64,000 nt of DNA. Source: an uncultured bacterium (lineage in GTDB: Bacteria > Bacillota_I > Bacilli_A > RFN20 > CAG-826). The stretch covers positions 62,001 through 126,000 of the forward strand of contig CASFKG010000001.1 in assembly GCA_949295325.1 (NCBI GenBank). Direction: 5' to 3'. The notes under the pieces are model-generated. The model was given only the letters and a program-made list of their open reading frames with translations, was not told the DNA's origin and ran no database searches. Below, piece by piece: positions 44,822 to 56,369 of this stretch. How positions within the stretch are numbered: the stretch's first letter is position 1; each line of letters starts with the position of its first letter. The position numbers and the translations under genes were made by a program.

Positions 44822-44936
44822 TTTGGAAGCGTTTTCCTAGCCTCACCCCCTCCCCTTGTCCTTTTCTTTTTTGTATTATGTATTCGATTTAACGGCCGAT
44901 ATATAAACCAATGCCGGAAATAATTTGAGTTTGTGC

Positions 44937-46592
44937 ATGAATAATCCAGTCAATATCTTTGCCCTCGGCGGTTTGGGGGAAGTAGGCAAGAACACCTATG
45001 CCTTCGAAACCGGGGACTCCATCATTTTGGTGGACGCCGGGGTCCGCTTCCCGGAAGCCAATCTTCCGGGCGTGGATTACGTGATTCCCGATTACACGTA
45101 TCTGAAGAACAACCGGGGGCGCTTCAAGGCCCTCTTCATAACCCACGGCCACGAGGACCATATCGGCGGCATTCCCTTTTTGGCCAGGACGGTTTCGATT
45201 CCGGTGATATACGCGCCCCGGCTCGCCGCGGCGCTTATCCGCCATAAACTGGAAGACGCGAGGATAAAAGAGCCCATCAAAATCGTCGAAATCGATAGCA
45301 ATTCCAAGGTCAAGGTCGGAAACGACTTCAGGGTTTCCTTTTTCAGGGTCACCCATTCGATACCCGATGCCTTCGGCATCTGCATCGATACCGACCAGGG
45401 AAGGATAATCGAGACCGGCGACTTCAAGATCGACCTTACCCCGGTCGGCCCGAAATTCGAAATCGACAAACTCGCGGGCCTAGGCCAAGAAGGGGTGGAC
45501 CTCCTCATGGCCGACTCCACCAATGCCGAACTAGAAGGCTATACCCCGAGCGAAACCGCGGTAAGAAGCGGGGTCGAGGAAATATTCGACAAGGCCATCG
45601 GCCGCATAATCGTTTCCACTTTCTCAAGCAACATAAACCGCATTCAGCAGGTCGTGGAAGTCGCAATCGAACACGGCCGAAAGATATGCATACTGGGACG
45701 CTCGATGGAAAACGTCGTCGGCATCGCCAGGGAATACGGTTACATCAAAATCCCCGATAGTGCCATCGTAAGCGACGACATGGTCAAGGGGCTGCCGGCC
45801 AACCAGGTGTGCATCCTCTGCACCGGGAGCCAAGGCGAGCCCATGGCCGCCCTAAGCCGCATCAGCAGAGGCGAACACAAGGTCCGTATCATGCCGGGGG
45901 ATACCATCGTCTTTTCCTCCAACCCCATTCCGGGCAACGGCGCGCTCGTCGATAGGCTGGTCAACGACCTGGTGAAGCAGGGCGCCGACGTGAAGCAAAA
46001 CGGCATAGCCTTCTCGCTGCATTCCTCCGGGCATCCTAGCCGCCAGGAACTGCGGCTTATGCTGAGTCTCGTAAACCCGCGGAACTTCATGCCGGTCCAC
46101 GGGGAATACAGGATGCTTAGGATGCACGGCGACATCGCCAAGGCCATCGGGGTCAAGGAAGACAACATCTTCATCTGCAATAACGGCGACATGCTGACCC
46201 TATTCGACCACAAGGTTACCCGGGGCGGACACGTGCCGGCCGAGGACGTCTACATCGACGGCAACGACCTCGACGGCCTTAGCGCCGGCGTTATCCATGA
46301 TCGCGACATTCTCAAAAACGAAGGCATGATCGCCGTTCTGCTAACGATAGACAAACGCGGCGAAGTGACGGTTCCGCCGATTGTCTATGCCCGGGGCTTC
46401 TCCGCCTCCATGGATACCCATGTCGTAAGGCATGCGCAGATGCATGCCGCGGAGGCGCTTAGGGACACGCTAAAGGAAACCAAGGCCATCGCGACCATCA
46501 AGGCCGCGGTAAAAAACGCGGTCGGCAAATACATTTTCCGCAAGACCGAGAGGTCGCCCATGATCATCCCGGTCGTCATGCAGGGCAAATAG
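44937..46592 (+). CDS. rnj: Ribonuclease J
   Basis: The ~551-residue protein has the metallo-beta-lactamase motif FITHGHEDHIGGIPF (residues ~67-81), GDFKIDLTP, the beta-CASP part with DSTNAE, and PVHGEYRML near 375. RNase J has 5'-exonuclease and endonuclease activity in mRNA decay and rRNA processing. The ATG at 44937 is taken as the start. It may be especially relevant to short-leader mRNAs, which is speculation. Confidence 0.93.
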   Translation: MNNPVNIFALGGLGEVGKNTYAFETGDSIILVDAGVRFPEANLPGVDYVIPDYTYLKNNRGRFKALFITHGHEDHIGGIPFLARTVSIPVIYAPRLAAALIRHKLEDARIKEPIKIVEIDSNSKVKVGNDFRVSFFRVTHSIPDAFGICIDTDQGRIIETGDFKIDLTPVGPKFEIDKLAGLGQEGVDLLMADSTNAELEGYTPSETAVRSGVEEIFDKAIGRIIVSTFSSNINRIQQVVEVAIEHGRKICILGRSMENVVGIAREYGYIKIPDSAIVSDDMVKGLPANQVCILCTGSQGEPMAALSRISRGEHKVRIMPGDTIVFSSNPIPGNGALVDRLVNDLVKQGADVKQNGIAFSLHSSGHPSRQELRLMLSLVNPRNFMPVHGEYRMLRMHGDIAKAIGVKEDNIFICNNGDMLTLFDHKVTRGGHVPAEDVYIDGNDLDGLSAGVIHDRDILKNEGMIAVLLTIDKRGEVTVPPIVYARGFSASMDTHVVRHAQMHAAEALRDTLKETKAIATIKAAVKNAVGKYIFRKTERSPMIIPVVMQGK

Positions 46593-47138
46593 ATGCTCAT
46601 ACTCGCCAGCGCCTCGCCGAGGCGGAAGGAACTTCTTAGGAAGCTCGTGCCGGAATTCAAGATAATCCCTAGCCGCATCGACGAAAGGGTCATGGACGAT
46701 CTTGATCCTTCGATCATGCCGTTAGAAGAAAGCAGGCTGAAGGCCTATGACCTCTTCAGCCGCTACCCCGGTAACGAGGTTCTGGCCGCCGACACGGTCG
46801 TGATCCTCGACGGGAAGATCTACGGGAAACCCAAGGACTACGATGACGCGGTCCGAATGCTCAAGGCGGAACAGGGGCGTTCCCAGATGGTGCTGACCGG
46901 CTACTGTTATCTCAGCAGCGACCGGGAAATCAACCGCACCGTTTCCACGAAGGTAAGGTTCCGCAAAATGGGCGAAGCCGAAATAAGGGAATATCTGGAC
47001 AGGTGCAGACCGTTCGACAAGGCCGGGGCCTACGGAATCCAGGACGAGGGCACGCCTGTCGAAAGCATCGAAGGCAGCTTCGACAACGTCATGGGCCTTC
47101 CGACCGAGGATCTAGCCCTCCACGTCTTCCGGAAATAA
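46593..47138 (+). CDS. maf: Maf nucleoside triphosphate pyrophosphatase
   Basis: The 181-residue protein begins MLILASASPRRKELLRKL and has ADTVVILDGKIYGKPKD and GAYGIQDEG, the Maf signatures. It hydrolyses dTTP/UTP or modified nucleotides. Its ATG abuts the RNase J stop. The last 27 bases overlap the convergent gene. Confidence 0.93.
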   Translation: MLILASASPRRKELLRKLVPEFKIIPSRIDERVMDDLDPSIMPLEESRLKAYDLFSRYPGNEVLAADTVVILDGKIYGKPKDYDDAVRMLKAEQGRSQMVLTGYCYLSSDREINRTVSTKVRFRKMGEAEIREYLDRCRPFDKAGAYGIQDEGTPVESIEGSFDNVMGLPTEDLALHVFRK

Positions 47139-47519
47139 TTTGGCCGCGAGTTCGCGGCTTTTTCCTTCTAAGACGATGGTTATCTTTTCGCTTCCGAGAA
47201 TGTATTTGGATAGCCCCATGGCCTTGAGGGATTCGCCGTCGACTTTGCCGGAATCCTTTATGGAAATGCTCAATCTGCTGCCGACCAGGCGGTGGGAAGT
47301 CACGTTGTCTTTCCCTCCCAGGGCCTTATAAATTTCGTTGTCGTCCTGGCTAAGGGCGATAATCTCTTCTTTGATGGCCTTTTTGCGGGGTTTCGACAGC
47401 TTTATTGCGGCAATGGTACCGAAAACCACGGCCAGCAGTCCCACTACGGCGACGATGGCGTAGAAGGCGATGTCCGGGAACCCGGGTATTGTTTCTAGGG
47501 CCTTAACGGTATAACTCAC
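47112..47519 (-). CDS. Membrane-anchored PTS EIIB-like domain lacking the active cysteine
   Basis: The 135-residue protein has one membrane helix (~residues 18-40), then IYKALGGKDNVTS, SRLSISIKDSGKVD and LKAMGLSKYILGSEKITIVL. This closely follows the glucose-type PTS EIIB fold (family pattern aLGGkdNi ... CxTRLR ... VkD). The phosphorylated Cys of CxTRL is replaced (LVGSRL), so it cannot accept phosphate from EIIA. It may be a sensor or regulator of PTS state. A plus-strand terminator for maf lies inside its 3' end. Confidence 0.75.
   Translation of the reverse strand: MSYTVKALETIPGFPDIAFYAIVAVVGLLAVVFGTIAAIKLSKPRKKAIKEEIIALSQDDNEIYKALGGKDNVTSHRLVGSRLSISIKDSGKVDGESLKAMGLSKYILGSEKITIVLEGKSRELAAKLFPEDVEG
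47143..47165 (+). terminator. maf terminator inside the EIIB-like gene
   Basis: GCCGCG-AGTT-CGCGGC followed by TTTTTCC, located within the coding sequence of the opposite gene. Confidence 0.75.
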
Positions 47520-47549
47520 TTTGTTATAATAACCACCGAGGTAAGAAAG

Positions 47550-48119
47550 ATGTCAAATGCCATCGAAATTGAAGCCAAGGCCTTGGTGGGCAAGGCCGAC
47601 TATCTTAAACTGGTCGGGCTCTTCCCGGAATCGGTACCCTACGAACAGACCAACTACTACATCGACAACGACGATTCCCTTCTCAAGGAAGAAGGCATAT
47701 CGCTCCGCATAAGGCGCAAGGGCGGCGCCCTGATGATGACCCTGAAGACCCCGCTTTCCCAAGGGCTTCTGGAGAAAAACGAAGACCTGACCGAGCAGGA
47801 ATTCGGCGAATTCGAAAAAGGCACCTTCCCCGAAAACGACCTCAAGAGGTTCCTCACGATGCTCGATATCGACCCATCCTCGCTCAAGATAATCACGTCC
47901 CTGACAACCAAACGCGTCGACGTGAAATACAAAGAAGGCCTGCTTTCCATAGACGAAAACCACTACTCGGGGCAGACCGACTACGAAGTCGAACTCGAGT
48001 ACAACAACGAGGCCGAAGCCGAAAAGCTCCTGCGGGAACTTTTGGAAGAAAACGGGATACCCTACGTCCTCAACAAAAAGACCAAGGTCAGCCGGGCGCT
48101 GGCCGCGGTTGGCCGCTAG
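47550..48119 (+). CDS. CYTH-domain protein
   Basis: The 189-residue protein begins with the ExExK signature (IEIEAK) and has YYIDNDDSLLKEEGISLRIR and the tunnel-lining alternating charged strands (ALMMTLKTP, YEVELEYNN). CYTH enzymes hydrolyse triphosphates (inorganic or thiamine triphosphate). It resembles the YjbK group. TATAAT at ~47524 and GAGG before the ATG suggest a short normal leader. Confidence 0.85.
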   Translation: MSNAIEIEAKALVGKADYLKLVGLFPESVPYEQTNYYIDNDDSLLKEEGISLRIRRKGGALMMTLKTPLSQGLLEKNEDLTEQEFGEFEKGTFPENDLKRFLTMLDIDPSSLKIITSLTTKRVDVKYKEGLLSIDENHYSGQTDYEVELEYNNEAEAEKLLRELLEENGIPYVLNKKTKVSRALAAVGR

Positions 48120-48131
48120 TCGGCCTTTTTT
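48111..48131 (+). terminator. Terminator holding both stop codons
   Basis: GGCCG-CTAGT-CGGCC then TTTTTTA. CTAG in the loop provides TAG stops for both convergent genes. Confidence 0.8.
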
Positions 48132-48568
48132 ATTTTCCCCTGTTCGTCGAGGCTTTTCAGACAGGTCCCGTAGCTAGGGCAGTTTTCGGGGTTGCAGACC
48201 GAGTCGGAAATCTTCTGGGCTAGGGAACGGAAGGTGGAAATCTCCTCTTCGTTGTAGCCGGTCTGGATACGGTGGTCGTCCATGATGATCGGCCGTTTCA
48301 AAACCGAGGGGTTTTTCTTTATAAAGGCGATTAGTTCGCTCATCTTCATGTCGTCGAAGTCGATCTTGTTTTCGGAAACTATCTTGGAACGGGTCGAAAT
48401 AACGTCGTCGGTCCCGTTTTCGGACTTGCTTAATATTTCCAAAATGTCCTTTTCCGAAAGCGTTCCGGAAAAAATGTCCTTCGTTTGGTAGGGTATGTGG
48501 TTGTCGTCGAACCACTTCTTCACCTTGCGGCAGCTGGCACACGACTGCGAAACATAAATCTTTATCAC
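48116..48568 (-). CDS. spx: Spx-family regulator with extra cysteine-rich tail
   Basis: The 150-residue protein has the redox CxxC (CASC, residues ~10-13) and RPIIMDDHRIQTGYNEEEI near residue 93-111, as in Spx. Spx binds the RNA polymerase alpha subunit and switches on thiol-stress genes when CxxC is oxidised. Unlike Bacillus Spx, it ends with CNPENCPSYGTC, which could bind a metal or form a second thiol switch. The GTG start at 48568 is supported by a TATCAT box (48575-48580) ending 6 bases before it. Confidence 0.8.
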   Translation of the reverse strand: MIKIYVSQSCASCRKVKKWFDDNHIPYQTKDIFSGTLSEKDILEILSKSENGTDDVISTRSKIVSENKIDFDDMKMSELIAFIKKNPSVLKRPIIMDDHRIQTGYNEEEISTFRSLAQKISDSVCNPENCPSYGTCLKSLDEQGKIKKAD

Positions 48569-48809: not shown

Positions 48810-51359
48810 ATGATCAAAAAAGGTCTCATCCTTCTGGCCATTGCTTCGCTCGGAGGCGTTTCGCTGCAGACGCCTGCGGTCGGGGCCTTGGCGGAAAACA
48901 GCGTCGAATCCGGTACCGGAGATTCATCTGAAACTTCGGAAACTTCGAAGATCTACGCTGCCCTCGAAGAAATATGGACTTCGGGGAATTACACCCTCGA
49001 ATGGGAATACGGCGGTAAAACATACCGCGACGTCTATACCCCCAACTACAGCGTCATCGGAGGAGGATCGAGCGGTTACGTCCTGCTTCCCAGCGTCGAC
49101 GGAGCCTACCAGCATATGGCCTATAACGCGCCGTATACCATTTCCGCGAACGGAGTGAAGAACATTACCTTGGGAACCCCGCTCGTCGGTGCTACCCGCA
49201 CTTTCCTACCCGGCGATGCCAACATGGGCGCCAATTTCGCCGTCTACCAGAACCCGGTCGACAGCATCGATGAATACAACCCATTAAGCGAAACCAACCG
49301 CTCGATGTCATTCTGGGCGGATTATTTTACGGAAGACAAGATAGTCGACCTCGGTTTCGGGGACGGGACCCTCGGCTGCCTCGGCTATACCTCCACCGCC
49401 ACCTCCGTGAAGGGGCAGGCGGCCATCTACCTTACCACCTGTGCCGTCCTGGGCTTCTACCGCGGGACCAGCAATTTCAACGCCATATACGTAACCGGAC
49501 GCTTCTACCAAGTAGCCGACGCCAATTCCTATTCGGCTTCCTCGAGGCCCTATGCCGTGAGCTTCGATTTCGACGAGTACGACAATCTCGTCGCTTCGGT
49601 TTGGCTTGAGGACGATGACGGGACCTACTATGTCCCCGACGGAGGAACCGGCACCTTCAAGGACATCGGAACTTCAAGCGACATCGACTTCGACGAGTTC
49701 ATGTCGGAAGCGACCGCGAATGTTTCGAAGAAATCGCTTTCGCGGGAGCAGGCCGCTCCGATAATCGGCCGCGAATTCTCGAGTACGACTACCGTGACAA
49801 CCGTCTACGACACGATGTCGGGCATCGTCGAGCAAAACCCGGTGACCTACTACCTCGACTACAACGATTCGTATCTGCGTTCCTATAGCGAAGACAATAT
49901 GGAAGGCAACCTTTATTGCCGCGAGAGCGATGGCAGCGCGTCCTTCGTGCTCCTGACCGGGGACAACAAGGTCGAACACTATAACGAAGAAGGCGATATG
50001 TGGCTGGACTGGATGTTCGCCTACGAATTCATGGATCTGGGTTCCTGGCGCCTCAATCCCGTGACCGGCACCTATTTCTACTACGGACTCAACGCGGATT
50101 CGGTCTACACCGCCCTGACCGGGTGTGCCGTTCCGGGAATCGATAGCTCTACCTCGTTCGATATCGTGTCCCTGGAAATTAGTCTCGAAAACGGAGTCGT
50201 GAGCCATATGGAGGCAACGACTTCGACCATCAGCGCCTTCGGACCCGACGGCAGCGTTTCCTATCTCTACTGCGTAAGCGAAGTCGACTTCGATAAGGAA
50301 CCCAGGGAAATAAAAGTCCCGACGCCGTTTGAAAGGGACGAATCCTACGACACCGTGAAAGCGGCCTTCGACAGCGTCAACGACGTCACCAAGCCCCACA
50401 AGACCGTCAAGGTCGAGTACTTCACGGGTGTCAATGAGAACAACGCCCTCCACATCCATTCGTGGTTCACGCCCGACGTCGTCTATATCGAAAACCGCCT
50501 CCAGCAGGAAAGCGGCTACTCCGACTTCTCGGCGATGGGCTACTACCTTAAGAAAGACTCATCCGGCAATCCGTTAGGAATAATCCGTTTCGAGCGGGAC
50601 TGGGATACCGGGGCCGTAGAGGCAGCCGCGCCAATCTATGAAGGCGAAGGCATCGAAGATTACTGGGACAAGATCACGGCCAATCCGGACATCATGACCT
50701 TCGACTCCAACGAACGCACCCTCAAGCTCAAGGGCAACGTCCACCTCCTGCCCTCCTACTTCCCCACCATTTCCGGGGACGACGAGGGGGAGGAAGACAG
50801 CGTCAGCAACCTCAAAATCACCCTCAATGAGGACGGGACGATTTCGAAAATCGACTACAACGCCGGGGCGAGCATAACTTCCTATGGAACCTTCAACACC
50901 ATCGGCCGCATCGACTACTACTACGGCGAAGAACTTCCGGAAGGCCTATTGGACCAACTGGCGGCCATGCCGGAATGGGTGACGCCGGAAAGCTGGAGCG
51001 AAAGCGCCTACGGTGCCGACGAAGACTTCATGGAGGACATAAATTCCTTCCTCGAATACTATGCCGAGGAAACCGGAGAGGTCCTAACCGTCGAGGATCT
51101 GCCCTACGTCTATGACGAGGACTGGGAAGAAGGCGGCTATTCCTCCTTCTGGAGTTCCTACAGCCACTACTTCTACACCTACGCGAATTCGGGCGACTGG
51201 AGCGAGCTCATCGCGGCATACGAAACCCTATTGGCGGGAGAAGGCTATGTCCTGACCGACGACCAGTGGGTAAAGGGACGGCTTTACGTCGAAGTTCGTC
51301 CTTATTCGACCTACAGCGGTACCGGTTTCCGCCTCGAATTCGGGGTAACCGATGCCTAA
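48810..51359 (+). CDS. Large secreted protein of unknown function
   Basis: The 849-residue protein has a Sec signal peptide (MIKKGLILLAIASLGG, likely cut after AVGALA) without a lipobox cysteine. The mature part is acidic, Ser/Thr/Tyr-rich and beta-rich. Segments such as YAALEEIWTSGNYTLEWEYG recur in looser form later (AAFDSVNDVTKPHKTVKVEY; LLDQLAAMPEWVTPE), suggesting repeated beta-barrel-like domains. It is first in an operon with two lipoproteins of similar style. AAAGGAG precedes the start. Confidence 0.7.
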   Translation: MIKKGLILLAIASLGGVSLQTPAVGALAENSVESGTGDSSETSETSKIYAALEEIWTSGNYTLEWEYGGKTYRDVYTPNYSVIGGGSSGYVLLPSVDGAYQHMAYNAPYTISANGVKNITLGTPLVGATRTFLPGDANMGANFAVYQNPVDSIDEYNPLSETNRSMSFWADYFTEDKIVDLGFGDGTLGCLGYTSTATSVKGQAAIYLTTCAVLGFYRGTSNFNAIYVTGRFYQVADANSYSASSRPYAVSFDFDEYDNLVASVWLEDDDGTYYVPDGGTGTFKDIGTSSDIDFDEFMSEATANVSKKSLSREQAAPIIGREFSSTTTVTTVYDTMSGIVEQNPVTYYLDYNDSYLRSYSEDNMEGNLYCRESDGSASFVLLTGDNKVEHYNEEGDMWLDWMFAYEFMDLGSWRLNPVTGTYFYYGLNADSVYTALTGCAVPGIDSSTSFDIVSLEISLENGVVSHMEATTSTISAFGPDGSVSYLYCVSEVDFDKEPREIKVPTPFERDESYDTVKAAFDSVNDVTKPHKTVKVEYFTGVNENNALHIHSWFTPDVVYIENRLQQESGYSDFSAMGYYLKKDSSGNPLGIIRFERDWDTGAVEAAAPIYEGEGIEDYWDKITANPDIMTFDSNERTLKLKGNVHLLPSYFPTISGDDEGEEDSVSNLKITLNEDGTISKIDYNAGASITSYGTFNTIGRIDYYYGEELPEGLLDQLAAMPEWVTPESWSESAYGADEDFMEDINSFLEYYAEETGEVLTVEDLPYVYDEDWEEGGYSSFWSSYSHYFYTYANSGDWSELIAAYETLLAGEGYVLTDDQWVKGRLYVEVRPYSTYSGTGFRLEFGVTDA

Positions 51360-51371
51360 AAAGGAGCCAAC

Positions 51372-52634
51372 ATGGAAAAAACTAAATTCATTGCGTTGAT
51401 GGGCCTGGGCCTGCTGGCCCTTTCGGGATGCGCGGGCGGCTCCGGATCGTCCGCGTCCGTAGAAAGCGGGACACCGAGTCTCGACCCGGATCTGGACGAA
51501 AAGCAGGAGTTCGTCTCCTTCCTCCATTCGATGGCGGAAAATCCCTTCGACCTGGCAATCGGGGAAACCACGATGACCGTGGCCGCCGGCTACGTGGCCG
51601 GGGAAAACGGCGGGACCCTGCTGCTCGATGCCTATGCCGGCGACACCGACAAAATCGCCTATCCCTACGAAATAGGGGAAGGAGGCATCGACCTGGGAAT
51701 AGCCCTTACCGATGCAGACGGTGCTCCCCTTTCCGCACTAGAAGGCGGAATCCCGGCGCAATTCGCCGAAATCGGAGTGGACGATATCTCCATCCTCGAT
51801 GACGGCGGCGCCACGACCGAAAACGCCTCCGTGACTTCCTACTTCGCCCTTGGGGAAGACGCGACCGGAGCCATAAAGATGGTGCTAGGGGAAAACGGCC
51901 TTAGCGTGGCGTTCGAAGGCGGTTTCTCCTTAACCGTGGAGAACGTCGGTACCGCTTCCGACCCGACCGTAGAGTCCTATCTGGCGGAAGTCGGCCTTCC
52001 TCTGGCTTCCATCGCCCCGGCCAATTCCACCAACATCGCTTACGGGAACGTCTACAACTCGGTCACCGATTTTTATGCGGTAACCGACGGCGTCATAGCG
52101 GACACCCCGGAGAAAACCACCATGCTCGACCAAGGACCGACGACCATCCACCTCTATACCGCTGAGGACCCGGTCGGGACCATCCTGGTAAGAGGGGAAG
52201 ACGGCAACACTGACCAGATGTCGGTAACCCTCGGCGAAGACGGTGTACCGACGGCCTTGACCACGACGGACTATCTTCCGGATGGCGAGCAGCTCCCCTG
52301 GTCCGAAGCCGGACTGACCGTCGACTATTTCGACATCTCCGGGTTCAGGGGAACCTACGATGCCGACGCTTTGGCGGAAGGCGGCTACGACCAGATCTTC
52401 CAGTACTACGGCTGGCATGCCATGGACTGCTATTTCAGTGCCGTGAGGGAAAGCCTGCCGGAAGGCGAAACGATAACCGATATCGAAATCACGGTCCCAA
52501 GGGACGAAACGCCGACCGACGACATGGTCAGCCAGATCGTCTTCGAAACCAAGGAAGAGGGCAATAACGGCCACCTCATCGTGACGACTGTCAGCGATGA
52601 TCCCGTCATACCATCCCTCCCGGAAATCCAATAA
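51372..52634 (+). CDS. Lipoprotein of unknown function
   Basis: The 420-residue protein has a lipoprotein signal with lipobox LSGC (Cys19) and a Ser/Gly linker. The body is beta-rich and acidic, with FLHSMAENPFDLAIGETTMT near the start like the repeated unit of the preceding gene. It starts 12 bases after that gene's stop with AAGGAG before the ATG. Confidence 0.7.
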   Translation: MEKTKFIALMGLGLLALSGCAGGSGSSASVESGTPSLDPDLDEKQEFVSFLHSMAENPFDLAIGETTMTVAAGYVAGENGGTLLLDAYAGDTDKIAYPYEIGEGGIDLGIALTDADGAPLSALEGGIPAQFAEIGVDDISILDDGGATTENASVTSYFALGEDATGAIKMVLGENGLSVAFEGGFSLTVENVGTASDPTVESYLAEVGLPLASIAPANSTNIAYGNVYNSVTDFYAVTDGVIADTPEKTTMLDQGPTTIHLYTAEDPVGTILVRGEDGNTDQMSVTLGEDGVPTALTTTDYLPDGEQLPWSEAGLTVDYFDISGFRGTYDADALAEGGYDQIFQYYGWHAMDCYFSAVRESLPEGETITDIEITVPRDETPTDDMVSQIVFETKEEGNNGHLIVTTVSDDPVIPSLPEIQ

Positions 52635-52646
52635 GGAGCAAAAACG

Positions 52647-54371
52647 ATGGAAAAACCCGCAAAAATCCTTTCTTTGCTCGTTTCTTTGGCGGCACTAGGC
52701 CTGGTGGGATGCGCCGGGCAGGGCCCGGCTAGTTCCATAGAAGATGAAACTTCGAGCCTCTCGCCGGTGGAGCCCGTTACCTTGAAAGTAACTGGTTTCC
52801 CGGGCGAAATCGGGCTTGGCGCCGACCACGCCCTGAATCTCGACGACTACGTCGAAGTAACCGGGGCCGAAACCTATGAAATAGACGTGATTTCCGGCCC
52901 CGTTTCGCTAGAAGGCCACGTCTTGACCGGGACGGGCTACGGCGACTTCGCCCTTTCCGTTTCGGCGAAGGACAAGTCGACCAGGCTCGAAGGCCGCGTC
53001 GTCACGGACAACCGCCTCGAACTCTCGGCCGCCATCTCCGCGCTGAGCGACAACTACACCGCTTCGATAGCGATAAGCGGACAGAAAACCTACAACTTCC
53101 GCAATGAAAACTACATCGCGATAGGAAGTTACCTTGACGAAACCTATAACTCCTATGCCTACGAGACCAGCATCATCGCCCCGGACGGCAATGCCTATTT
53201 CGCCTTGTTCGGGACGGATTTGGAAAACGTGCCATTCAGTGACCTCATCTTCTCGAGCGGCGTCGACCGGACCCCGGACGAGAAGGGCTACGTCCCGCTC
53301 ACCCTCGTTCCATCCGACTTCGAGGATGTCTACGGGCGGGACGGCAATCCGACCGGCCAGTACGTCCTGAGCGACCAGGAAGCCATAAGCACATTCTTCG
53401 CTTCTGCCTTCATGTACAGTTGGGCCAGCCTTGTGCAGACCAGCTATGCCGCCCAGTTCCTCTGCACCTTCGAGGAAGGCACGCTGACGATGGTCGCGGT
53501 CAACCGCAACTTCTACGAAGTAGGACTTGTCATCACCTTGGAGGATATCGGAACCACTGAAATCGGACTGGTCGAAGACTGGCTTGCCGATCCGGTCTAT
53601 CCCGCCAAGATCGACACGACTCCGATAAGTTCCTTCCTCGACGAAGCCGACGCAAGCGGTTCCTACCACATGTCGGTCCAAGCCGCTTGGGTCAATACCA
53701 ATAACGGAAGCATGACAAACGTCCCCAGTTCCATGGAAGACAGCAACGGCTACGCGCCTTTGTTCAATTACCTGGCCGATGTCTACGTCACCGAGGACTA
53801 TGTCCTTACTTCGGTCAACTACATAACCGATAACGTCTATTCCGCCTACGGGGATAACGGCTACGTTACCGACGGCGTCGTCCTCTACTCCTATAACCAG
53901 GGAAGTCCCACCACCGCCAAGGGTTCCTTGGTCAGGGATGAAAACGGCGAAATAGAGACGGTTCTTTGGGGCGGAGCCTCTTCCACCACCGGCGTCCCGC
54001 CGCTTGAGGGCTATCTCTATTCCCTTTCCGGCATCGACCGCGGCGTGCTCGAAAACGGGAACTTCCGCAGCGAAGGCGACGACACCACCGGCACCATGAC
54101 CCTCTACGGGTTCGACCATTACGGAGACGGCGGGGCATTGAGGCAGGAAATGTACGATCTTGGCGGTTTCCCGCTTAGTTCGATCTACGACAACTTCGGC
54201 ATGTTCAGCCTGCTTGAGAACTACCTAAGCGACGCGATTGCCCTAAGCAAGGACGGCACGTCGCTCGTCTTCCAGTCCTCGCTTGCCTATGCCACCTCCC
54301 AGATATACCTGGTGTCCATAACGGTCGACAGCTTGGGCAGCGGCGATTCGCCCATTGCCCTTCCGGCTTAG
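52647..54371 (+). CDS. Lipoprotein of unknown function
   Basis: The 574-residue protein has lipobox LVGC (Cys~19) and an acidic, tyrosine-rich beta-type body. ISALSDNYTASIAISGQKTY parallels units in its two operon neighbours. It starts 12 bases after the previous stop with AAGGAG. A terminator follows. All three are likely displayed outside the cell. Confidence 0.7.
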   Translation: MEKPAKILSLLVSLAALGLVGCAGQGPASSIEDETSSLSPVEPVTLKVTGFPGEIGLGADHALNLDDYVEVTGAETYEIDVISGPVSLEGHVLTGTGYGDFALSVSAKDKSTRLEGRVVTDNRLELSAAISALSDNYTASIAISGQKTYNFRNENYIAIGSYLDETYNSYAYETSIIAPDGNAYFALFGTDLENVPFSDLIFSSGVDRTPDEKGYVPLTLVPSDFEDVYGRDGNPTGQYVLSDQEAISTFFASAFMYSWASLVQTSYAAQFLCTFEEGTLTMVAVNRNFYEVGLVITLEDIGTTEIGLVEDWLADPVYPAKIDTTPISSFLDEADASGSYHMSVQAAWVNTNNGSMTNVPSSMEDSNGYAPLFNYLADVYVTEDYVLTSVNYITDNVYSAYGDNGYVTDGVVLYSYNQGSPTTAKGSLVRDENGEIETVLWGGASSTTGVPPLEGYLYSLSGIDRGVLENGNFRSEGDDTTGTMTLYGFDHYGDGGALRQEMYDLGGFPLSSIYDNFGMFSLLENYLSDAIALSKDGTSLVFQSSLAYATSQIYLVSITVDSLGSGDSPIALPA

Positions 54372-54384
54372 GCCGGCGTTGACC

Positions 54385-54411
54385 AAAAGGGCCCCTACGG
54401 GGTCCTTTTTG
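54385..54411 (+). terminator. Terminator of secreted-protein operon
   Basis: GGGCCCC-TAC-GGGGTCC (one G-U) followed by TTTTTG, preceded by AAAA. Confidence 0.85.
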
Positions 54412-54422
54412 TTATAAAAGCC

Positions 54423-54450
54423 TTGACAAAGAAGACATTTAGGGGATGAT
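54423..54450 (+). promoter_or_regulatory. M6 protease promoter
   Basis: Consensus -35 TTGACA (54423-54428), 16-base spacer, -10 GATGAT (54445-54450), 8 bases before the ATG at 54459; no Shine-Dalgarno sequence. Confidence 0.55.
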
Positions 54451-54458
54451 TTTCGGGC

Positions 54459-56369
54459 ATGAAAAAACACCTTACTATCATATCGTTGCTGCCGTTGACC
54501 GCGATTGCCCTCTCCGGCTGCGAACTCTTGCGGATTCCGGCTTCGTCTTCGGACGGAAAAGAATCCACGACGACCTCGACGCATGTCGAGCCCTATCCGA
54601 TACCGGACGATTCCTCTTCCAGCGCGGAACCCGGAACCGTAGGGCTGACGTTCACGCTTGGAAACGAATACGTTTCCGAAGGCACGTCCTTCCTCGACTC
54701 GGCCGATCCCTATGTTTCGTTTTTCGACGGGACGACGAGCAAGGCGGTCTCCAACACCGTCGTTTATTCAATCCACAACCAGACTAACGGCAAGAACTAC
54801 AGCGAGGAAGAAGCCCTGGAACCCGGCTTATATTCCGTTACCGCCAGTTATACCTACGGAAAAGATGTCTACACCGCCCAGTGCTTCCTGTCGGTGAGGC
54901 CGTACGAGGCCGAACGAAACAAAGGCTATAGCCAAGTCGATTTGGAATATACCATCTCGACGGATCCCGAACTCGGCGTCTTCGGAATGGAATCGTCTTC
55001 GCCGACCCTAGGAAGTCCGAAGTTCCTGGTCGTCCCGGTTACCTTCAACAACGTCCCGGATTTCACGCAGACGGAACTCGACAACATCTATGATGCCTAT
55101 CTGGCCGACGGAATGGCCGACAAGGGCGGCTTCTATTCTCTGCACGAGTACTACTACCGCTCTTCCTACGGCAAGCTCGACCTCGACATCGAAATAGCCG
55201 ATCCGCTCGAACTGCCGATTTCCACCTCGACTTTCGAAAAGGACAATAATTACCTCTGGACCCTGATGAGCGATTTCCTAAACGAATTCGTCGATAACCG
55301 CGGGATAAACCTGAGCGACTACGATAGCGACGGAAACGGCTATATGGACGGCATCCATTTCATATATAAAACGGACAAAAGCGTCGACGGGACCAGCGAC
55401 ATCTGGTGGAACTACACCACCGGCTTCGAGTTCGAGCCAAACGAAATACATCCAAGCGACGATCCGGAAGCCGCCATGGCTTCCCCGGCCATCTTCTTCT
55501 TCTCGGCCTACGTCTCGATGATGTCGACTTACGCCAGCGTCCCGGATTCCCACACGATCATCCACGAAAGCGGCCACATGCTCGGCCTAAACGACTACTA
55601 CTCCTACGACTACGACGAAGCCCCGGCCGGCGGATCCATGATGATGGATCTGAACGTCGGAGACCATGACCCCTATAGCAAGATGCTCATGGGCTGGGTC
55701 GACCCCTATGTCGTCGACGGGACCAGCGACCATTTCGAAATAACGCTTCGGCCCTTCGAGAGAAGCGGCGACGTCGTGCTTCTTAGGAATACCAGCGAGG
55801 ATCCCTTCAACGGAACCCCCTTCGACGAATACCTGACCCTCAGCTACTACACCCCGACCGGCCTAAACGAACCCGACAGCCGCGGCTATCCGGAATGGAG
55901 CGTCATCGGGGAAGGGCGGATTTACGACCAGCCGGGCCTACAGGTCTACCACGTCGACTCGAGAACCGGCATCGAAACCCGTAATTTCGTGCAGACCAGC
56001 TTCGAATACGTCGACGTAGACGAGGCGACCGCCGAGCAGAAGGAAAACCTCCGCATCGGCGCCGACAACACGCAGAGCAGATCCTGCAACGAAAACTTCC
56101 GCCTTATCGAAGCGGTGGCTTCCGACGGGCTTGACCATTTCACGACCGCTTATTACATGGAGGATTACCTCTCCTACTTCGGAAACAACGAGATCCTTTT
56201 CGGCAACGGCTCCGCTTACGGCGGAAGCCAATATACCAATGCCAAGTTCACCCGCTATTACTACAACGGCAACCTGATGAACGACGGCACCGCCATCGAA
56301 TATTCCTTCCGGGTAATGGACATGGACGGGGAAGGCTTGACCCTGAGATTCGACCGCATAGGGCAGTGA
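54459..56369 (+). CDS. M6-type (immune inhibitor A-like) metalloprotease lipoprotein
   Basis: The 636-residue protein has a lipoprotein signal (lipobox LSGC at ~Cys21) and an Ig-like segment. The catalytic domain has the zinc motif HESGHMLGLND near residue 368 (HExxH with a third ligand downstream) and GGSMMMDLNVGDHDPYSKML, like the M6 family. A beta-sandwich tail ends it. It would act at the cell surface on host or dietary protein. It follows three other secreted proteins but has its own promoter. Confidence 0.85.
   Translation: MKKHLTIISLLPLTAIALSGCELLRIPASSSDGKESTTTSTHVEPYPIPDDSSSSAEPGTVGLTFTLGNEYVSEGTSFLDSADPYVSFFDGTTSKAVSNTVVYSIHNQTNGKNYSEEEALEPGLYSVTASYTYGKDVYTAQCFLSVRPYEAERNKGYSQVDLEYTISTDPELGVFGMESSSPTLGSPKFLVVPVTFNNVPDFTQTELDNIYDAYLADGMADKGGFYSLHEYYYRSSYGKLDLDIEIADPLELPISTSTFEKDNNYLWTLMSDFLNEFVDNRGINLSDYDSDGNGYMDGIHFIYKTDKSVDGTSDIWWNYTTGFEFEPNEIHPSDDPEAAMASPAIFFFSAYVSMMSTYASVPDSHTIIHESGHMLGLNDYYSYDYDEAPAGGSMMMDLNVGDHDPYSKMLMGWVDPYVVDGTSDHFEITLRPFERSGDVVLLRNTSEDPFNGTPFDEYLTLSYYTPTGLNEPDSRGYPEWSVIGEGRIYDQPGLQVYHVDSRTGIETRNFVQTSFEYVDVDEATAEQKENLRIGADNTQSRSCNENFRLIEAVASDGLDHFTTAYYMEDYLSYFGNNEILFGNGSAYGGSQYTNAKFTRYYYNGNLMNDGTAIEYSFRVMDMDGEGLTLRFDRIGQ

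Follow-up and report, generated by a model that had tools for sequence, protein, structure and literature searches.

Our analysis indicates that a short membrane protein encoded in the window, by which we mean the whole 64,000-nucleotide stretch of DNA analysed here, is probably a repurposed EIIB domain that can no longer be phosphorylated, serves as a membrane docking domain outside the PTS, and descends from the EIIB of a PTS permease. The host is an uncultured bacterium (GTDB lineage Bacteria; Bacillota_I; Bacilli_A; RFN20; CAG-826) with a genome of 1.10 Mb at 95% completeness, and action outside the PTS is proposed because no PTS was found in it. We use the name EIIBL for short proteins of this type, which consist of a membrane helix and an EIIB domain. 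An orphan EIIB, MG_129, was already known, and the EIIBLs present themselves as a widespread non-catalytic orphan EIIB with a probable origin by ptsG decay. Judged from the sequences, the PTS label carried by the family is misleading, as the catalytic residue has been discarded almost everywhere and the protein persists in bacteria in which no PTS was found.

The gene, its parts and its neighbours have the following window coordinates:

47112..47519, minus strand: EIIBL gene, 135 aa, GTG start at 47519, stop codon inside the range; one membrane helix and a Cys-less glucose-type EIIB domain
47403..47459, minus strand: predicted membrane helix, residues 21-39 by hydropathy (helix 14-42 in the model)
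47124..47351, minus strand: EIIB-fold domain, residues 57-132 (AlphaFold2; VIA-align Z 10.9 to 1o2f_B)
47268..47285, minus strand: degenerate active-site loop V-G-S-R-L-S, residues 79-84 (C-x-T-R-L-R in PTS EIIBs)
47526..47531, minus strand: -10-like hexamer TATTAT, ending 6 nt before the EIIBL GTG start
46593..47138, plus strand: maf, convergent, sharing 27 bp with the 3' end of the EIIBL gene; a neighbour conserved in the genus
44925..46592, plus strand: RNase J gene, a neighbour conserved in the host's own family and in group f3
47550..48119, plus strand: gene for a CYTH-type protein, divergent, 30 bp from the EIIBL gene; no NCBIfam match
48116..48568, minus strand: gene for an Spx-family regulator, upstream neighbour of EIIBL

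Its orthologues and the dN/dS values show the EIIBL reading frame to be coding. The 6-nt spacing between the -10-like hexamer and the start codon recurs in 15 of 23 same-genus loci, with start codons as assigned in this analysis, and suggests that the EIIBL transcript may be leaderless. Neighbourhood labels here and below, including CYTH and trpS, were given mostly by clustering and by eye, with many genes left unlabelled and ten representatives checked with NCBIfam; the CYTH-type label of the 47550..48119 product rests on its ExExK motif. Between spx and trpS, positions 48810-56369 of the window hold four consecutive plus-strand ORFs of secreted or lipoprotein type (849, 420, 574 and 636 aa). 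The same-genus relatives L097, L098 and L156 have little or nothing between spx and trpS, which points to a lineage-specific insertion of the four-ORF block.

Profile searches place the protein at the edge of the EIIB family. Residues 62-94 match Pfam PTS_EIIB at 28.5 bits, a marginal pass over the cut-off of 27, and the NCBIfam model EIIB_glc (TIGR00826) is not reached, with 25.7 bits against a cut-off of 45.75. An AlphaFold2 model built on a 24-row alignment (mean pLDDT 83.9) has a long helix at residues 14-42 and an EIIB fold at residues 57-132, and the top solved structures matching it in Foldseek were the E. coli IIB-Glc chains 1o2f_B, 3bp8_C and 3bp3_A, with a best E value of 2e-5. Superposition on E. 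coli IIB-Glc with VIA-align gave Z scores of 10.4-10.9, the best of which, 10.9, extends over 75 residues. C-terminal domains of ArgR also appeared in the VIA-align and Foldseek lists, with Z scores of 5-7, and were taken as a common arrangement only. Orthologues, fold and selection all speak against a chance similarity to EIIB, which was therefore rejected.

The position of the phospho-cysteine is occupied by Val79, and the second arginine of the motif is also gone, with Ser84 in its place, while the Ser-Arg pair (S81-R82) is kept. A hydropathy scan found a single hydrophobic segment, residues 21-39, and the Lys/Arg-rich stretch that follows the membrane helix would be cytoplasmic by the positive-inside rule. 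The first-pass annotation of this DNA had described an EIIB fold, a replaced phosphorylation cysteine and a tie to a single membrane helix, and all three are borne out: fold prediction with AlphaFold2, Foldseek and VIA-align all point to EIIB, Val79 stands at the site, and the hydropathy segment coincides with part of the modelled helix. Its further statement that the domain cannot take part in phosphotransfer as known also appears correct, since the loss of the cysteine should make transfer by the known mechanism impossible.

To learn how far these features extend, we surveyed relatives of EIIBL, which a protein search detected in 35 of 41 genomes, including all 25 of the host's own genus; none of the 24 rows of the EIIBL alignment has a cysteine at the active site. 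EIIBLs are known from 22 family-level groups of the phylum, presumably the mycoplasma group (f1, f3, f4, f6, f8, f11, f12, f14 to f23 and f27 to f31). Profile searches gave higher tallies, 342 of 395 genomes in the class-labelled group and 367 of 392 in the phylum, which include ordinary PTS EIIBs and are not counts of EIIBLs. A common alignment of 122 domains from the same phylum was made, with 62 EIIBL rows from loci picked for spread, not as a random sample, and 58 rows of EIIBs from PTS permeases. The full permease L143, which has the cysteine, was counted among the PTS rows, and the duplicates L160-L162, L200 and L201 were left out of the 62. The cysteine is present in 1/62 EIIBLs versus 58/58 PTS EIIBs, and the second arginine in 6/62 versus 58/58. 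The exception with a cysteine is a short relative from a Turicibacter MAG that lies nearer the PTS EIIBs in the tree. Orthologues that keep the cysteine, or a fold other than EIIB, would have spoken against the first-pass annotation; in general neither turned up, with 61 of 62 EIIBLs lacking the cysteine.

Within the loop, position 82 is Arg or Lys in 54/62 EIIBLs and position 81 is Ser or Thr in 45/62. The positions of Cys79, Arg84 and Gly118 decay in EIIBLs; the scaffold residues Gly68, Asn72, Ile/Val73 and Asp89 are conserved, and structural positions are conserved in EIIBLs and PTS EIIBs alike. Two EIIBLs of group f11, L221:1489-1851 (-) and L236:1462-1830 (-), keep TRLR intact beside the changed cysteine position, a minimal inactivation. 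In the simple hydropathy scan, 50 of the 62 EIIBLs have one hydrophobic segment, with three or four in group f14 and two in f18; three rows from f22 and f29 fall under the threshold, and a helix is still modelled in the f29 representative. At an E value of 0.01, Pfam PTS_EIIB matches 33 of the 42 members of EIIBL alignment A2.

The phylum-level profile search found no EIIBL match in some genomes of groups g150 and g20, so that these genomes seem able to do without the function or have a protein too divergent to be found. No short EIIBL was found in several genomes of groups f11 and f25, where the inspected matches were PTS permeases, apart from two membrane proteins of f25 whose EIIB-like end lacks the cysteine. 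These f25 proteins, L222:331-1854 (+) and L224:331-1857 (+), are about 510 aa long and have many hydrophobic segments besides the EIIB-like C-terminus; Pfam does not recognise PTS_EIIC in their membrane part, and they are possibly another decayed permease.

Purifying selection on the EIIB domain is strong. In pairwise comparisons of nine close relatives from the genus, dN/dS over the 71 codons of the domain was at most 0.19 in 36 of 36 pairs and mostly 0.02-0.06. In L007, L009, L010, L016, L017, L018 and L022 the domain protein is nearly identical and the membrane helix region strongly divergent. Among the rows read, only L020 is interrupted by an in-frame stop, which lies between helix and domain and may come from an assembly error.

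Searches for PTS components gave a sparse picture. In the host genome, EIIBL is the only PTS_EIIB match, HPr had no match, and the EI model stayed below its cut-off. An apparent EI match (PF02896) lies in an 897-residue frame, the size of a pyruvate phosphate dikinase, and scores far below the EI cut-off, so it was not counted as EI. Glucose-type EIIA had no match in any of the 41 genomes, in a search that took in the glucose type only. HPr was found in 12 of the 41 genomes and, within the genus, in only 2 of 25. Among the 35 EIIBL-bearing genomes, EI was above the cut-off in 18, four had divergent or fragmentary matches, and 13 had nothing beyond frames of about dikinase size. The one-contig genome with locus L081 (G156) has EIIBL and HPr side by side and no EI above the cut-off, and thus an HPr without its usual phosphate donor.

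In 14 of 59 mapped loci, from seven groups (f14, f16, f18, f19, f21, f27 and f28), ptsH is the next gene downstream of EIIBL; the gaps range from -23 to 125 bp, and in 8 of the 14 the genes overlap or are at most 4 bp apart. Two representative downstream proteins were confirmed as HPr with NCBIfam, and in both of them the His and Ser sites of phosphorylation are present. Three Turicibacter-type genomes (group g42) have a full Cys-bearing EIICB of 528-548 residues in the slot before ptsH-ptsI, one of which matches PF02378 and PF00367. In a sister genome, the Turicibacter sp. MAG (WRGF01000214.1), a short membrane-bound EIIB that still has the cysteine is followed by HPr and EI, and in a third genus a Cys-less EIIBL precedes HPr and EI. 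We read this graded series as a sign that EIIBL derives from the ptsG gene of a ptsGHI operon. A tree on 77 columns leaves many of its forks open; in it, the short Turicibacter form that has kept the cysteine is nearest to full ptsG, and this form may be an independent truncation of ptsG. The same columns do not reject the EIIBLs as one clade (p-AU 0.83 without and 0.81 with the Cys-bearing Turicibacter row), which does not prove a single origin.

The M. genitalium-type locus has the order trpS, spx, NAD kinase, EIIBL and an RNase Y-type gene, which presumably corresponds to MG_126 to MG_130, and in loci of the window's genus the order is trpS, spx, CYTH, EIIBL, with the four further ORFs separating trpS from spx in the window itself. 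This common gene order, in which spx lies near EIIBL in both, makes the window protein and the M. genitalium-type protein, presumably MG_129, probable orthologues despite an identity of 19%. The two are alike in size (135 versus 117 aa), N-terminal helix, EIIB fold and lack of the cysteine; the model of the M. genitalium-type protein has a pLDDT of 87.4 and a Foldseek E value of 6e-7 to 1o2f_B. They differ in that the M. genitalium-type protein has the NAD kinase and RNase Y-type genes at its flanks instead of CYTH and maf, and has also lost the Ser-Arg pair that the window protein keeps. Unlike the window's host, the M. genitalium-type genome has EI and, according to PMC13047044, HPr. There, MG_129 and M. 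pneumoniae MPN_268 are called an "orphan PTS EIIB" protein, an AlphaFold3 prediction places MG_129 in contact with the SRP receptor FtsY, and one crosslink, at a distance above 30 Angstrom, is given for MPN_268. In the open-licence PMC literature we found nothing on the family beyond PMC13047044, and neither its loss of the cysteine nor its wide spread was found described there.

Taken together, the mechanism that we propose would begin with a PTS permease, most likely the ptsG product of a ptsGHI operon, whose EIIB part became EIIBL. The EIIC transport function and phosphotransfer (positions Cys79 and Arg84) would have been lost and the fold kept under strong selection, with one helix holding the EIIB domain at the inner face of the membrane. 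There EIIBL would most likely offer a docking surface by which a cytosolic partner, with FtsY as a candidate, is recruited or regulated, in the manner of the EIIB surfaces that serve Mlc and MtlR. The PDB entry 3bp8 is the E. coli complex of Mlc and EIIB, and B. subtilis MtlR is recruited by the EIIB of MtlA. In these systems a membrane-held EIIB binds a cytosolic protein, which makes them a model for EIIBL, although those EIIBs can be phosphorylated and are part of working permeases, and EIIBL is neither. The EIIB of the glucose PTS permease (PtsG, PF00367/TIGR00826) shares the fold, the GG-x-x-N-I scaffold and a Pfam match, which for EIIBL is just above the cut-off, but EIIBL lacks the cysteine, the second arginine and the EIIC part, falls below the TIGR00826 cut-off and resides in a host in which no PTS was found. 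EIIB-like domains of PRD-containing regulators serve protein-protein contact and not transport, according to PMC8560693; they differ from EIIBL in being of the galactitol type, inside transcription factors and without a membrane anchor.

A narrower form of the docking reading would make EIIBL the specific membrane partner of FtsY in co-translational targeting, and we regard it as possible but doubtful. FtsY is the only partner candidate with outside evidence, namely the predicted contact and the crosslink in PMC13047044, and the window protein resembles the MG_129-type protein in size, helix, EIIB fold, loss of the cysteine and spx neighbour, as described above. The FtsY proteins of these genomes have no clear membrane helix of their own, which would fit a membrane partner; yet their N-termini are alike in 16 genomes with EIIBL and 12 without it, neither set having a clear helix, and the highest 19-residue hydropathy is 1.64 in one EIIBL-bearing row and at most 1.38 in the other 27. 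The idea that FtsY has acquired a membrane helix of its own in genomes without EIIBL thus found no support, and nothing suggests that FtsY compensates for the absence of EIIBL. Genomes without EIIBL have an intact FtsY, neither ftsY nor ffh was seen beside EIIBL in the 59 mapped loci (with labels by clustering or by eye and many neighbours unlabelled), and the length of the crosslink also counts against a specific partnership. As a partner of the docking domain, FtsY is the best outside candidate.

The first-pass annotation had suggested a sensor of HPr or EIIA as a new role, and such a protein would report the phosphorylation state of the PTS at the membrane. The tightly spaced ptsH genes downstream of EIIBL, with HPr confirmed in two cases, speak for this and leave some room for it in relatives, but the linkage may be a relic of ptsGHI, and canonical EIIB binds EIIA and EIIC and is not known to bind HPr. 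In the host, where HPr, EI, glucose-type EIIA and a further EIIB all went undetected, the role is improbable; HPr is also unmatched in 23 of the 25 same-genus genomes, all of which have EIIBL, the glucose-type EIIA is missing from all 41 genomes, and EI went undetected in 13 of the 35 with EIIBL. For the family as a whole we consider a PTS sensor unlikely. A membrane sensor of another anion or of sugar phosphate, the latter also raised in the first-pass annotation, acting through the Ser-Arg pair of the old active-site loop, draws on the frequent Arg/Lys at position 82 and Ser/Thr at position 81; this retention could be structural, however, the MG_129-type protein and several further mycoplasma-type rows no longer have the pair, and 56 of 62 EIIBLs have lost the second arginine, so we hold this role to be improbable. 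It is more improbable still that EIIBL anchors or tunes an enzyme encoded next to it. NAD kinase is encoded directly upstream in 13 of 59 loci from five groups, with three more loci in two further groups seen by eye, and the EIIBL and RNase Y-type genes of the M. genitalium-type locus overlap by 11 bp; but neither the window nor the mapped loci of its genus have the NAD kinase gene beside EIIBL, the RNase Y adjacency was identified in one locus, and neither enzyme is among the partners named in the available part of PMC13047044. Very little speaks for a functionless ptsG relic on its way out. The decay of the cysteine, the second arginine and Gly118 and the missing matches in some small genomes would fit it, but the protein is matched in all same-genus genomes, is kept in a genome of 0.58 Mb and shows a single in-frame stop among the rows read, and the selection data make this explanation highly unlikely.

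The docking reading can be extended, tentatively, to a history in which ptsG was stripped in place to give a widely kept membrane receptor for a core non-PTS process, such as SRP-dependent targeting, and this receptor outlived the PTS in many lineages, including that of the window; we hold this to be possible, though short of probable. Members of the family match PTS models and are named as parts of the PTS, and with MG_129 the family is represented in one of the smallest cell genomes on record. Should EIIBL indeed be a docking domain, a missing membrane part of a core mollicute process would be identified. The family would then also show clearly how a gene for a transporter can be reused for a receptor, and Turicibacter-type genomes may still hold intermediates.
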